Below, piece after piece: positions 4,095-56,568 of a stretch of DNA of 64,000 nt. Origin of the DNA: Fibrobacter sp. UWB10. Lineage in GTDB: Bacteria; Fibrobacterota; Fibrobacteria; Fibrobacterales; Fibrobacteraceae. The position numbers and the translations under genes were made by a program. The stretch lies in assembly GCF_900182935.1 (NCBI RefSeq), contig NZ_FXUE01000001.1:248001-312000 (forward strand), in the 5' to 3' direction. The first letter of the stretch is position 1. The number at the start of each line of letters is the position of its first letter. Below the pieces are notes generated by a model. It made no database searches and had not been told where the DNA came from. It was given only the letters and a program-made list of their open reading frames with translations.

Positions 4095-4180
4095 TTGAAA
4101 AAGTGTATTCAAGTACACAAAAGTGGGTCGAAAAAGTGCATCCAAACACTCAAAAGTGGGTTGGAAAAGTGCGCTCAGGG
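4095..4180 (+). repeat. 33-bp tandem repeat, 2.6 copies
   Basis: Units start at 4095, 4128 and 4161, each opening with TTGAAAAAGTG, TCGAAAAAGTG or TTGGAAAAGTG; the first two end in CAAAAGTGGG. The period is exactly 33. The third copy decays into the hairpin element. Because 33 is a multiple of three, a short open frame runs through as 11-residue repeats, but nothing else supports translation. Confidence 0.85.
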
Positions 4181-4263
4181 TTTTAGGGGCAGAGCCCTTA
4201 GGCGAAGGGGTAGCGGAAGACTCGGCTGTGCCGTGGCTGAAGCGAGGGGGACTCTTCCCCCTT
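4176..4263 (+). repeat. dispersed two-hairpin element, copy 1
   Basis: The element opens with GGGTTTTAGGGGC, whose AGGGGC pairs with GCCCTT to form hairpin one. It continues through the core GGGGTAGCGGAAGAC (4207-4221) and closes with a second hairpin, GGGGGA-CTCT-TCCCCC (4246-4260 region). The same order of parts, with the 15-base core identical, is found in reverse complement at 55781-55868 inside coaBC. This is therefore a mobile or amplified intergenic repeat, not a simple terminator. Confidence 0.75.
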
Positions 4264-4288
4264 CTATATTTTTTCTAAATTATCGCCC

Positions 4289-5611
4289 ATGAAAAAATAC
4301 CACTTGGCCACATACGGCTGCCAGATGAACGAGTACGACTCGGCGATGATCGCCCAGGAACTCGACATGTGCGGTTGCGTTGAAACGAGCAACCAAGAAG
4401 ATGCCGACTTCATCATCGTGAACACCTGCAGCGTACGCGAAAAGGCCGAGGAAACCGCCATCGCGAACATCAGCAAGCTCAAGTACCTGAACAAGAAGAA
4501 TCCCGACGTGAAGGTTGTCGTGTGCGGCTGCATGGCTAAAAATCGCGGGCCGGAACTTTTGAAGCGCCTTCCGAACGTGAGCTACGTCGTGGGCCCGGAC
4601 CAGTACAAGAAAATCCCGGAATTGCTGCTCGGCGACGCCCATAGCCCGCTGCACCTGACACACCACAAGATGTTCATCGACGAGGACCTGAGCGAAAACT
4701 ACTTGGGTGAATACGCGAAGCTCCAGAACGATTTCACGACTTTCGTCGCAATTCAGCGCGGATGCAACAAGCGCTGCAGCTACTGCATCGTACCGTACCT
4801 GCGAGGCCCCGAAAAGTACCGCAACATGGAAGACGTGCTCGCCGAAGTCCGCAAGGCCGCCGACAAGGGTATTACCGAAGTGACGCTCTTGGGCCAGACG
4901 GTGAACGCCTACAAAACGGAAGGCGGCAACTTTGCCGACCTCCTTACGAAGGTTTCTGAAATCGAAGGCATCCGCCGCATTCGCTTTACGAGCCCGCACC
5001 CGAGGCACTACACGAACGAACTCATCGACGTGTTGCTGAACAACCCGAAGGTCTGCCACTACGCGCACATTCCTATCCAGAGCGGCTCCGACGTCATGCT
5101 CAAGAAGATGCGCCGCCAGCACAACATGGAGCAGTACCTCTCGATTATCGAGCAGTTGCGCAGCAAAGATCCGTTCTATGGCATTTCGACGGACGTGATT
5201 TGCGGATTCGTGGGCGAAACCGAAGCAGATTTCGAAGACACGCTCAAGGCATTTGAACAGTGCCAGTTCGACAGCGCCTTCATGTTCATCTACAGCCCGC
5301 GCAAGGGTACAGAATCGTACAAGGAAGCCGAGACGCTCACCGAGCAGGAAAAGCAGGAACGCCACACACGCCTGGTGGAACTGCAGAACGCCATTACGCT
5401 CAAGCGCAACCAGATGATGCTCGGCCGTACCGAGGAACTTTTGGTGGAAAAGAATTCCGCACGCGACGAAACGGAACTACGCGGCCGCACCGACAACTTC
5501 AAGAAGGTAATTTTTAAGCCCGAAGAAGGCCGCATCGTGAAGCCCGGCGACTACGTGAAGGTGAAGCTCGACGACATTCGCGGATGGACGATTAGAGGAA
5601 AGTTAGTTTAG
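4289..5611 (+). CDS. miaB: tRNA-2-methylthio-N6-dimethylallyladenosine synthase MiaB
   Basis: The 440-residue radical-SAM enzyme adds the 2-methylthio group to i6A37 of tRNAs reading UNN codons. The N-terminal UPF0004 domain has the three cluster cysteines Cys11 (TYGCQMN), Cys47 (NTCSVRE) and Cys81 (CGCMAKN). The radical-SAM CxxxCxxC is Cys159, Cys163 and Cys166 (RGCNKRCSYC). The last 65 residues form a TRAM domain. Length and motif spacing match MiaB better than MtaB or RimO. The ATG at 4289 follows ATCGCCC without a Shine-Dalgarno site; a TATATT box lies 18 bases upstream. The SPOR-protein gene follows after 41 bases. Confidence 0.95.
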   Translation: MKKYHLATYGCQMNEYDSAMIAQELDMCGCVETSNQEDADFIIVNTCSVREKAEETAIANISKLKYLNKKNPDVKVVVCGCMAKNRGPELLKRLPNVSYVVGPDQYKKIPELLLGDAHSPLHLTHHKMFIDEDLSENYLGEYAKLQNDFTTFVAIQRGCNKRCSYCIVPYLRGPEKYRNMEDVLAEVRKAADKGITEVTLLGQTVNAYKTEGGNFADLLTKVSEIEGIRRIRFTSPHPRHYTNELIDVLLNNPKVCHYAHIPIQSGSDVMLKKMRRQHNMEQYLSIIEQLRSKDPFYGISTDVICGFVGETEADFEDTLKAFEQCQFDSAFMFIYSPRKGTESYKEAETLTEQEKQERHTRLVELQNAITLKRNQMMLGRTEELLVEKNSARDETELRGRTDNFKKVIFKPEEGRIVKPGDYVKVKLDDIRGWTIRGKLV

Positions 5612-5646
5612 ACGAGAGAACGGCGCAAGCGCCTACAGACGAGAGA
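5610..5646 (+). repeat. direct repeat flanking a small hairpin
   Basis: AGACGAGAGA occurs at 5610-5619 and 5637-5646, flanking the perfect stem GGCGC-AA-GCGCC (5622-5633). It fills the gap between miaB and the SPOR-protein gene. Its role is unknown. Confidence 0.6.
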
Positions 5647-5652
5647 CGAAAG

Positions 5653-6558
5653 ATGGATTCCAAAATCAGCGTACTTTCTATTCTACTTGCACTTTGCTGC
5701 ATAAACTCATTCGCGCAGACGATGGCTGATGCGCAAAAGGCATACGTTGCCGGCAACTGGAAAGAAGCCGCCGCCGCATACGAAGCCGCCTGCCCCAAGG
5801 AACCGGATTCCCTGCGTGCAGAATGCTACTTGTGGAACGTACTCGCTCTTTCGCAAATGGGTAGCGCCCAGTCGTTCAAGATTGCAGGCAATCGCCTCGA
5901 CAGTCTGATTAAGACTACGAACCCGCAAAGAGCGATTTATTCGGACTTGATGATGACGAGCGCCCAGTTCAGGCTCTACCTTGGCAAGTATGACAAGGCC
6001 GCCGAAGACTTGATTCAGGCAATCGAAACTTCGCACCCGCACCAAGCCATTGTACTGCAGAAGGTTTGCAAGGCCGTAAAGGCAAAAGTAAAGTCGGAAG
6101 ACTTGGATGACCGCTGCAACTTGCTGAACAACCCGGATTCAATCAAGGCTATTCGCACTGCATCGCAGGCCAAAGCAGCTCCGGTTGCACAGCCCGTTAC
6201 CCCTGAACCGGCACCGAAACCCGCCCAACCGGCTCCGGTGGTTGAACAACCTAAACCCGCTGTCCAGGCTACAGCCCCAGCACCCGCGCCGGCCCCCGCT
6301 CCTGCCGCCCAAGCCCCCGCTCAGGAATACTGGACCCTGCAGTTAGGCGCATTTGGAACAAAATCTAATGCTGATTTGTTGGTTTCGAGCCTGAAAAAGC
6401 AAAAAATCACCTGCACGATTATTGAGCAGCCACGCGGCGAAAGAACCCTCTATTTAGTCCAAACAGGCAAGTTTGAAACCAAGGATAAGGCGGTCGATTT
6501 CGCGGCAAGCAAGCTTGCCCCCCTAAAAATTGAATATCAACCCCTTTTGAAAAGGTAA
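5653..6558 (+). CDS. secreted SPOR-domain protein with TPR-like region
   Basis: The 301-residue protein has a signal peptide (about 1-22, ending NSFAQ). An Ala-rich helical region with TPR character (23-155) is followed by a Pro/Ala linker (about 168-222) and a C-terminal SPOR domain starting at YWTLQLGAFGT. SPOR domains bind peptidoglycan glycan strands lacking stem peptides and so locate proteins at division septa. The protein is probably periplasmic and may help division or wall remodelling. There is no transmembrane anchor beyond the signal peptide. It is probably transcribed with miaB. The ATG at 5653 begins the signal peptide. Confidence 0.85.
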   Translation: MDSKISVLSILLALCCINSFAQTMADAQKAYVAGNWKEAAAAYEAACPKEPDSLRAECYLWNVLALSQMGSAQSFKIAGNRLDSLIKTTNPQRAIYSDLMMTSAQFRLYLGKYDKAAEDLIQAIETSHPHQAIVLQKVCKAVKAKVKSEDLDDRCNLLNNPDSIKAIRTASQAKAAPVAQPVTPEPAPKPAQPAPVVEQPKPAVQATAPAPAPAPAPAAQAPAQEYWTLQLGAFGTKSNADLLVSSLKKQKITCTIIEQPRGERTLYLVQTGKFETKDKAVDFAASKLAPLKIEYQPLLKR

Positions 6559-38689: not shown

Positions 38690-38762
38690 GCCCCTATCGT
38701 CTAGTGGCCCAGGACTCGGGATTTTCATTCCCGCAACAGCGGTTCGAAACCGCTTGGGGGTA
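38690..38762 (+). tRNA. tRNA-Glu (TTC), copy 1
   Basis: The 73-base tRNA has acceptor GCCCCTA against TGGGGGT, D-arm CGTCTAGTGGCCCAGGAC and anticodon stem CGGGA/TCCCG enclosing TTTTCAT (anticodon TTC). Its T-arm is AGCGGTTCGAAACCGCT. CCA is not encoded. It is identical to the second copy 222 bases downstream. Two terminators follow within 85 bases. Confidence 0.97.
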
Positions 38763-38765
38763 TAA

Positions 38766-38797
38766 AAGGAACCTTTCGAAAGAAAGGTTCCTTTTTT
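38766..38797 (+). terminator. terminator module 1a after tRNA-Glu copy 1
   Basis: A perfect 12-bp stem AAGGAACCTTTC/GAAAGGTTCCTT has a GAAA loop and T6. It is preceded by GGTATAAAA, and the same hairpin sequence recurs at 39040-39071. Confidence 0.9.
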
Positions 38798-38826
38798 CAA
38801 CCCTTCCAAGGTATAAAAAGAGCACT

Positions 38827-38847
38827 CTCAGCGAAGCTGAGTTTTTT
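38827..38847 (+). terminator. terminator module 1b
   Basis: CTCAGC-GAA-GCTGAG is followed by T6. It is introduced by CCAAGGTATAAAAA, starting 51 bases after the first module's GGTATAAAA. Confidence 0.85.
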
Positions 38848-38869
38848 ATTTTCAAATAAAAAAACACCC

Positions 38870-38897
38870 TTGACAAATAAAAATACTTACCTATATT
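38870..38897 (+). promoter_or_regulatory. promoter of tRNA-Glu copy 2
   Basis: TTGACA (38870-38875), a 16-base spacer and TATATT (38892-38897) within TACCTATATTTGG. The flanks CACCCTTGAC and TTACCTATATTTGG are shared with the copy 1 promoter, so the promoter was duplicated with the tRNA. Confidence 0.85.
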
Positions 38898-38911
38898 TGG
38901 TCGCACAAATC

Positions 38912-38984
38912 GCCCCTATCGTCTAGTGGCCCAGGACTCGGGATTTTCATTCCCGCAACAGCGGTTCGAAACCGCTTGGGGGTA
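38912..38984 (+). tRNA. tRNA-Glu (TTC), copy 2
   Basis: Identical in sequence to copy 1. It has its own promoter and three terminators in a row downstream. Two copies fit the heavy use of GAA codons in this genome. Confidence 0.97.
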
Positions 38985-38987
38985 TAA

Positions 38988-39020
38988 AAAGGATTCATCA
39001 TTAGATGAGTCCTTTTTTTC
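38988..39020 (+). terminator. terminator module 2a after tRNA-Glu copy 2
   Basis: AAGGATTCAT pairs with ATGAGTCCTT (one G-U), followed by T7. It starts from GGTATAAAAA at 38981. Confidence 0.85.
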
Positions 39021-39039
39021 AACCCATTCAAAGGTATAA

Positions 39040-39071
39040 AAGGAACCTTTCGAAAGAAAGGTTCCTTTTTT
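39040..39071 (+). terminator. terminator module 2b, same hairpin as 1a
   Basis: The 12-bp stem, GAAA loop and T6 are identical to 38766-38797. It is introduced by CAAAGGTATAAAA at about 39030, 52 bases after the previous module. Confidence 0.9.
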
Positions 39072-39092
39072 CAACCGCGACAAAGGGTATAA

Positions 39093-39122
39093 AAAGAGCT
39101 GATCGAAAGATTGGCTCTTTTT
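39093..39122 (+). terminator. terminator module 2c
   Basis: AGAGCTGATC-GAAA-GATTGGCTCT (two G-U pairs) is followed by T5. It is introduced by CAAAGGGTATAAAAA, 53 bases after module 2b. Confidence 0.85.
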
Positions 39123-55251: not shown

Positions 55252-56568
55252 ATGAACCTCGCTGGAAAGAAAATCTTGCTCGGAGTCTCGGGCGGCATTG
55301 CCGTATACAAGAGCTGCGAGCTGTTGCGCCTGTTGCAGAAGAAGGGCGCCGAAGTACGCGTATGCATGACCGATGCGGCCACAGAATTCGTAGCGCCGCT
55401 GACTTTTGCAAGCCTGAGTAAATGTCCTGTGTACCTGAAGAACGGAGCCGTCGAGGCGCGTCCCTTCCAGCATATTGATTTTCCGCGCTGGGCAGACCTC
55501 TATTTGGTGGTGCCCGCGACCGCGAACGTCATCGGGAAATTCGCCTGCGGTATCGCCGACGATCCGGTGAGCCTTTGCTTTATGAGCTGCACGTGTCCGC
55601 GCGTAATTGCGCCCGCGATGAATGTGGCAATGTACAACTCCTCCGCCGTAAAACGCAACCTCGAGATTTTGCGCGGCTTTGAAGACACGACCGTGCTTGA
55701 ATCGCCTGCAGGGGAACTCGCCTGTGGTGAAATCGGACAAGGTCGCCTGATGGAACCGGCTGAAATTGTGAAGTATTTAGAAGGGGCAAGTCTGCCCCTC
55801 GCTGCATCCGCATGCGCGTCTTCCGCTACCCCATCTCCTAGGGGCACGGCCCCTAAAACCCCCGCGCCAGCATGTCCTGTTGCACAAGATGTCCCGCCGA
55901 CACAAGATGCAAGCCTTCCTGGCTACGGCAAGAAGGTTCTCTTGACTGCAGGCCGTACCGAAGAAGCAATCGACCCGGTACGCTATATCAGCAATCGCAG
56001 TAGCGGCAAGACCGCTGTGGCACTCGCCTCGGTATTCTACGCCAACGGTTTTGAAGTCGAAGTTGTCGCAGGCCCGATGGAAGCGAAGTTCCCGGGCGGA
56101 GTGAAAGTGACTCGAGTGACAAGCGCCCGCGACATGCACGACGCAGTCCTTGAACGAATGAAGAGTGCAAGCGCGCTCGTTCACTGCGCCGCCGTTGCCG
56201 ACTATCGCCCGAAAGTGGCCGCCACCGAAAAGATTAAGGATAGCCGCAGTCAGCTGATTCTGGAGCTGGAACCGAACCCGAATATTTTGCGAGACAGCGT
56301 CGCCCAAAAACGCGACGACCAAGTGATTGTCGGATTCGCACTTGAAACCGATCACTTCGAAGAACACGCCGCCGAAAAGCTTGCAAAGAGCGGCGCCGAC
56401 GCATTGCTTTTGAACGCCCCTGTAGCCGCCGACTCTGGCTTTGGCCGCGACTGCGTGCGGTTCGCCTTGGTGGAAAAGGGCAAGCCCGTTCCACAGCTCG
56501 CCATGGGCGAGAAGGTCGATTTGGCCGAGACGATTTTGAACTTTTGCCTGGAGCGCCTGAATGGCTGA
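55252..56568 (+). CDS. coaBC: bifunctional CoaBC with repeat-derived linker
   Basis: The 438-residue protein joins 4'-phosphopantothenate to cysteine (CoaB, C-terminal) and decarboxylates the product (CoaC, N-terminal) in CoA synthesis. CoaC motifs are LLGVSGGIAVYKS, the His in FQHIDFPRWAD, APAMNVAMYNS and PAGELACGEIGQGRL. CoaB starts at KKVLLTAGRTEEAIDPVRYISNRSSGK. Between them, residues about 177-206 are encoded by an inverted copy of the hairpin element at 4176-4263; about fifteen more linker residues follow. Both catalytic domains look intact, so the insert is probably tolerated. The ATG at 55252 is used; TTG at 55243 is unlikely. The UDG-like gene overlaps its end by 8 bases. Confidence 0.93.
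   Translation: MNLAGKKILLGVSGGIAVYKSCELLRLLQKKGAEVRVCMTDAATEFVAPLTFASLSKCPVYLKNGAVEARPFQHIDFPRWADLYLVVPATANVIGKFACGIADDPVSLCFMSCTCPRVIAPAMNVAMYNSSAVKRNLEILRGFEDTTVLESPAGELACGEIGQGRLMEPAEIVKYLEGASLPLAASACASSATPSPRGTAPKTPAPACPVAQDVPPTQDASLPGYGKKVLLTAGRTEEAIDPVRYISNRSSGKTAVALASVFYANGFEVEVVAGPMEAKFPGGVKVTRVTSARDMHDAVLERMKSASALVHCAAVADYRPKVAATEKIKDSRSQLILELEPNPNILRDSVAQKRDDQVIVGFALETDHFEEHAAEKLAKSGADALLLNAPVAADSGFGRDCVRFALVEKGKPVPQLAMGEKVDLAETILNFCLERLNG
55781..55868 (-). repeat. dispersed two-hairpin element, copy 2, inside coaBC
   Basis: On the minus strand the order is GGGGTTTTAGGGGC, GCCCCTAGG, the core GGGGTAGCGGAAGAC (55818-55832), GATGCAGCGAGGGGCA and a closing GGGGCA/TGCCCC hairpin (55783-55797 region). 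The order is the same as in copy 1 at 4176-4263, with a 15-base identical core. It is read in frame on the plus strand as LPLAASACASSATPSPRG and so on. Confidence 0.75.

Follow-up and report, generated by a model that had tools for sequence, protein, structure and literature searches.

A palindromic repeat of Fibrobacter translated in the linker of CoaBC and in other genes

The linker between the CoaC and CoaB domains in the coaBC gene of Fibrobacter sp. UWB10 contains a translated copy of a dispersed two-hairpin repeat of about 85 bp, named here R1, a second copy of which lies between genes of the same window (the whole 64,000-nucleotide stretch of contig NZ_FXUE01000001.1 that was analysed, Table 1). 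R1 forms a family in this genus and is read in frame at ten genic sites. In sister species, the same sites may hold other repeats in its place or nested within it, while the R1 copies of coaBC show compensatory changes in a stem and unusually slow change at silent sites. Based on the results below, R1 is probably a Fibrobacter-specific, non-autonomous palindromic repeat of the REP- or RPE-like kind, whose coding minority has survived in permissive sites.

Table 1. Repeat elements and the coaBC gene in the window (coordinates are those of the window).
Feature	Position	Strand	Basis or remark
coaBC, 438 aa	55252..56568	+	CoaC 6-174, R1 linker about 176-203, CoaB 226-403 (Pfam)
R1, variant A, within coaBC	55779..55863	-	Covariance model and BLAST; + strand translation EGASLPLAASACASSATPSPRGTAPKTP
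3' hairpin of the R1 element, AGGGGCAAGTCTGCCCCT	55782..55799		Fold
15-base core, GGGGTAGCGGAAGAC	55818..55832	-	Same in both window copies
Exchangeable 5' module hairpin, variant A, TAGGGGCACGGCCCCTA	55839..55855		Fold; A or B in coaBC of other species
Intergenic R1 copy	4176..4265	+	Upstream of gene starting at 4290 (MiaB-like by sequence)
R2, second dispersed palindromic repeat, GACGAGAGAACGGC-loop-GCCTACAGACGAGAGACGA	5611..5649	+	Also translated in other genes

The original prediction, made from the window alone, held that part of coaBC is an inverted copy of an intergenic element. When the reverse strand of 55781-55868 was aligned locally with 4176-4263, the score was 53, against 19 for the best other 200-base piece on both strands of the window. 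When the intergenic copy was used as a BLAST query against the whole genome, the copy in coaBC was found with E = 5e-14 (5.2e-14), together with a dozen more copies at E < 1e-6. The inverted match is thus real, and only its ends had to be corrected, to near 55863 and 4265. The predicted identity of the core was also correct, as it occurs exactly at 4207 (+) and 55818 (-); with up to two mismatches it was found at 15 sites genome-wide versus 7 for a reversed control. The peptide is of low complexity (22% Ala, 19% Pro, 15% Ser), as would be seen in an ordinary linker resembling intergenic sequence by chance, but this explanation is refuted by the alignment score, the genome-wide E-value and the size of the family (45 copies), and we give it practically no credence.

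To describe the family, a covariance model of 83 positions was built from 12 aligned copies. The coaBC copy matched this model with E 7.7e-18 (G000:C1:303779-303863), but it was itself among the 12 training sequences, and the BLAST value is the independent figure. Based on the model, the Fibrobacter sp. UWB10 genome contains 45 copies at E <= 0.1, and 39 at the stricter threshold of E <= 0.001. When 25 genomes were searched, the 15 other Fibrobacter genomes contained from 2 to 73 copies each, whereas R1 was not found in seven of the nine genomes of other families, the remaining two having five and one matches; copy numbers are derived from these searches and from individually fetched loci. Beyond Fibrobacter, five weak matches to the model (best E 1.1e-7) were found in G028, which belongs to another family of the same class. 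The search of the whole genome and of relatives therefore revealed a family and not a coincidence of two copies. The unit is 75-90 bp long, with two hairpins conserved across the aligned copies. Its 5' hairpin module exists in two forms, A (GGGGTTTTAGGGGC..GCCCCTAGG) and B (GGGGCGTTGCGGGG..CCCCGC), and is followed by GGGGGTAGCG, a variable central part and the 3' hairpin AGGGGGAGxCTTCCCCCT. No curated Rfam family matched R1 up to an E-value of 1, and a known structured RNA was rejected as its identity on this basis.

The coaBC frame is open from the ATG at 55252 to the stop at 56568 through the repeat, as had been predicted. R1 contributes about 28 Ala/Pro/Ser-rich residues between the two domains, close to the 30 originally estimated, and both domains (Pfam Flavoprotein and DFP) are intact in one chain. 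In an AlphaFold model built from 28 CoaBC sequences, the domains on either side of the insert were mostly ordered, and pLDDT was about 25 over R1 and below 50 for residues 180-212. Both domains align with the CoaBC of PDB 6tgv (residues 4-172 and 189-366), but the linker of the latter is about 16 residues against about 50 in Fibrobacter CoaBC; in class-level outgroups, the two domains are joined by about 15-20 residues. The R1 peptide may act as a flexible passive spacer between two autonomous domains.

Every stop-free frame was read across 44 R1 copies of the genome itself and the 80 top-scoring copies from relatives. Five of the 44 and about 19 of the 80 lay within long ORFs. Since bacterial genomes are mostly coding, five genic copies out of 44 indicate that R1 is strongly depleted within genes, which fits the removal of most insertions into coding sequence and the survival of tolerated ones. 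At least ten different genes, coaBC among them, carry in-frame copies, and Pfam domains were found in nine of ten, the PHP-like protein giving no match. R1 lies between the 3' DNA-binding and helicase domains of PriA, between the S4 and catalytic domains of a RluA-type pseudouridine synthase, between the two domains of a GT4 glycosyltransferase, ahead of the plug of a TonB-dependent receptor and also in FeoB. The original prediction of insertion at domain borders holds for CoaBC, PriA, RluA and GT4, but not for RsmB (a loop immediately before DxPC), the RlmL-like methyltransferase and the BtuF-like binding protein, where R1 occupies loops within domains.

R1 is in reverse orientation at eight of the ten genic sites, although this bias of 8 to 2 is not significant. 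All eight of these sites share one frame, in which the core is read as ATP-S and the peptide is rich in Ala, Pro, Ser and Thr. Of 59 intergenic copies, 43 are stop-free in the ATP-S frame and 39 in another reverse frame; if frames were chosen by openness (43, 39, 10), the probability of all eight sites falling in one named frame would be about 0.002. This suggests selection for a harmless peptide. The orientation also bears on the possibility that R1 is primarily an intrinsic terminator and that the coding copies are rare ones made harmless by orientation or tail. The 3' hairpin with the T-rich tail at about 4244-4273 is predicted to be an intrinsic terminator, and the genic copies in the same orientation have poor T-runs. 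However, a GC stem followed by a T-run, present at the 4176 copy, is weak in many others, and no difference in T content after the stem was seen between coding and intergenic copies (p 0.63); the tail was consequently rejected as an explanation for the coding copies. Together with the non-significant orientation, this makes a primary terminator role unlikely.

To assess the fate of the same site in sister species, CoaBC linkers were compared in a sample of 43 Fibrobacter genes recovered by name and several recovered by genome. R1 in its A or B form was scored in 27 of 44 linkers, the classes being assigned by a simple pattern under which L298 counts as lacking R1 despite a B remnant. Other linkers carry unrelated repeats, for example TRDERRETRDER heptamers, CHCENSQSSK, LSKGRE and SVTLSETKGP. 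Related CoaBC proteins thus do not share a single linker with ordinary codon-level divergence, which would have spoken against the original prediction. The expectation that sister species lack the linker held only in part: it is short in the class-level outgroups, but in Fibrobacter plain absence is rare and a different repeat usually occupies the site. Other palindromes are nested in frame within some of the R1 copies of CoaBC: SRHSGLEPESS in L300, CHPRAGGDL in L302 and L315, PVLSNAEAS in L306 and L308, and GCTKVGEPVEP in L299 and L329. In a maximum-likelihood tree built from the two domains without the linker, the presence of R1 changed at least nine times and the 5' module was swapped between A and B at least eight times, counts that could be inflated by between-species recombination and by 13 poorly supported forks. 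In the A/B swaps, the rest of the element and of the gene stays unchanged, and such swaps need some kind of exchange.

Similar replacement was found in other genes. The RsmB loop contains R1 in G000, G003 and G016; elsewhere it is occupied by TCTCGTC heptamers or GAGCGACC-type repeats. PriA has R1 in Fibrobacter sp. UWB10, a shortened remnant in G003 and R2 in G009. In the RlmL-like loop, R1 is present in at least seven species, while the gene of the UWB10 genome itself (L262, C2:550863-551678) carries a GTCATCCCGGC palindrome instead, two relatives of which occur in G009. Palindromes of the GTCATCCCGGCGAAGGCCGGGA type are in frame in the RlmL-like genes L262 and L265, with two copies in G009. 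It was also observed that the RlmL-like linker of L278 (G010) contains several near-identical translated repeats (TKGYVTLEEGTTDRVLDDCRKLS), the protein being more than 80 residues longer, and that the cytosolic linker of FeoB in L236 (G002) is an apparent in-frame stack of SESGIQNSESN, R1, VIARSDSAEAIF and VIPATEPESG. The comparison revealed no cleanly empty site showing a target duplication, and species without R1 mostly hold another repeat there. These protein linkers are best explained as tolerant sites which gather successive, replacing and nested inserts of several unrelated repeat families.

One of these families, R2 (AGACGARAGAACGGC..GCCTACAGACGARAGACGA), is translated as DERTxxxxLQTRDER in RlmL-like, PriA, FeoB and CoaBC genes of various species. 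A strict fixed-spacing pattern recovered only two copies of it, because the loop length varies. In the window, R2 directly precedes an ORF starting at 5654. In addition, a pattern search of this genome for GTCAT-type palindromes gave 11 matches and none for a reversed control. At 38690-39122 of the window, two tandem tRNA-Glu(TTC) genes are each followed by hairpin-plus-T-run units (GGTATAAAAGGAACC..GGTTCCTTTTTT), three or four altogether.

From the comparison of aligned sequences, it is apparently the DNA palindrome, rather than the peptide, that is preserved in the coding copies of R1. In 11 aligned CoaBC copies, the 3' hairpin is paired in 77 of 77 cells (100%), and its covariation score of 0.301 exceeds the mean of shuffles, 0.128, with none of 500 reaching it, and also the slid controls, which stay at or below 0.114. 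At the pair beside the G4/C4 arms, 26 Fibrobacter coaBC genes have C-G (9), A-T (9), G-C (7) or G-T (1), so that 25 of 26 have one of three Watson-Crick types; the encoded residue (Ala, Glu, Gly) changes with the pair, yet the stem is kept. Silent divergence (pS) in coaBC was 0.091 for R1, 0.328 for the domains and 0.356 for the rest of the linker, and replacement divergence (pN) was 0.048, 0.061 and 0.105, respectively, over ten pairs consisting only of species with the same R1 form, with L297 serving in two of them. The silent sites of R1 are thus 3.6-fold more conserved than those of the flanking domains, being lower in 10 of 10 pairs (Fisher p 5e-17). Seven pairs from six other genes gave 0.094 for R1 versus 0.532; in two of these pairs, the stretch of low divergence ran on past R1 for up to about 120 bases. 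In FeoB, R1 is 93% identical and stands between stretches of linker that are unlike one another. Silent sites of an insert that change several times more slowly than those of the surrounding gene are a clear anomaly, and a neutral passive element alone does not explain it. The palindrome would instead be kept by a constraint at the level of the element or of the nucleic acid, and not by selection on the protein.

Such a pattern could arise by concerted evolution, in which gene conversion from other family copies overwrites coding copies, keeps their palindromes and swaps A/B modules. The repeated swaps that leave the rest of the element and gene unaltered speak for it, and donors could be hidden by draft genomes. 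However, a copy usually resembles its orthologue in another species more than it does the copies found in its own genome. Sister-species orthologues are 91-100% alike (BtuF-like, RluA, FeoB, the TonB receptor and most RlmL-like pairs), and copies within one genome are mostly 80-90% alike, the two GT4 copies being exceptional at 70%. Homogenisation within genomes is therefore not supported for whole copies, same-genome conversion was rejected as the cause of the silent-site conservation, and we regard concerted evolution as improbable, if worth keeping in mind.

It is also conceivable that the hairpins are domesticated, being useful to the host in mRNA or DNA, for example by slowing the ribosome at the border between the domains so that CoaC folds before CoaB is made or by binding a nucleoid protein. 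The slow silent sites and the compensatory pairs that retain the stem at the cost of the amino acid agree with this, as does the folding of the coding strand of the coaBC copy, which is better than that of shuffles (z -2.3). On the other hand, the gains, losses and replacements of R1 in CoaBC, its presence at sites away from domain borders, such as the RsmB loop, and the fact that none of the hairpins is indispensable across species make domestication rather doubtful. We are equally sceptical of a broader proposal, that these linkers are permanent in-frame landing sites where unrelated palindromic cassettes replace each other and nest, and where selection at the nucleic-acid level (e.g., for a translation-pausing or protein-binding hairpin) holds the resident palindrome.

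Returning to the non-autonomous repeat that we favour, we suggest the following course of events. Copies of R1 would be spread by an enzyme or other activity supplied in trans, and most would settle between genes. A few would fall in a loop or interdomain linker that tolerates them, with the length a multiple of three and the frame open, and these could survive and be translated. Read on the reverse strand in the ATP-S frame, such a copy would give a flexible peptide rich in Ala, Pro, Ser and Thr, which in CoaBC may be a passive spacer. No transposase capable of moving R1 was found in the genome; the one Y1 transposase gene there is IS200-like and has no R1-like sequence at its ends, and R1 as a RAYT-driven REP was rejected for this reason. 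This tnpA gene (L170, C2:304741-305097) has an R1 copy about 1.5 kb downstream, past a MurA-like gene.

Among known systems, the palindromic elements of Rickettsia, to which the original prediction had pointed, are by analogy the closest parallel. They are dispersed palindromes of about 100 bp that lie between genes and also, in frame, inside housekeeping genes unrelated to one another; one reading frame is preferred, and the genus has several families (Ogata 2000, 2002, as reviewed in PMC10969869). R1 likewise is a many-copy palindromic repeat with two hairpins, in frame at ten genic sites as well as intergenic, with a conserved frame of the encoded peptide (8/8 reverse-orientation sites). 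The likeness is one of working, the Rickettsia elements belonging to another phylum, and it does not extend to membership. Fibrobacter differs in that one linker can receive several unrelated families, in place of or inside one another, in that coding copies exchange a hairpin module, and in that their silent sites change unusually slowly.

GTAG- and CGTC-tagged REPs are reported in frame in repair and RNA-modification genes of Opitutus, Thauera, R. conorii and others (Di Nocera 2013, PMC3733652); Fibrobacter is not mentioned in the main text of that paper. In most R1 copies GTAG starts the central part (GTGG or GTAA in some), followed by an imperfect stem. However, R1 is 75-90 bp long with two hairpin modules instead of 20-40 bp and could be composite, and no RAYT gene flanked by the repeat, as in the GTAG REP system, is seen in the genome. 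A palindrome of the Fibrobacter RlmL-like genes, GTCATTCCGGC...GCCGGAATC, looks similar to REPs of the CGTC type. MITEs are also small, non-autonomous and hairpin-forming, with occasional in-frame fusions (PMC10969869), and R1 shares these traits, but none of their hallmarks (terminal inverted repeats, target duplication, a parent IS) was seen in the R1 alignments or partly empty sites. An earlier report of coding palindromic repeats in Fibrobacter was not found in the literature searched, which covered few subscription journals, in agreement with the original statement. The claim of a new family of coding repeats holds for R1 as a family, but the kind itself is already known from Rickettsia and from REPs.

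To our knowledge, in-frame palindromic repeats have been thought of mainly as an oddity of Rickettsia, with scattered REP cases elsewhere. Here they are found in a free-living gut phylum with a deep comparative record, comprising 44 CoaBC linkers, several repeat families, nesting and module swaps. With such a record, the question of whether inserts of this kind are junk that is tolerated or supply linkers becomes directly testable. It should be noted that differences between the linkers of Fibrobacter proteins are not to be taken as functional divergence in annotation. If the doubtful proposal of landing sites with selection at the nucleic-acid level were true, a mobile repeat would have been turned into a regulated component of housekeeping genes, among them coaBC, the rlmL-like gene and rsmB.
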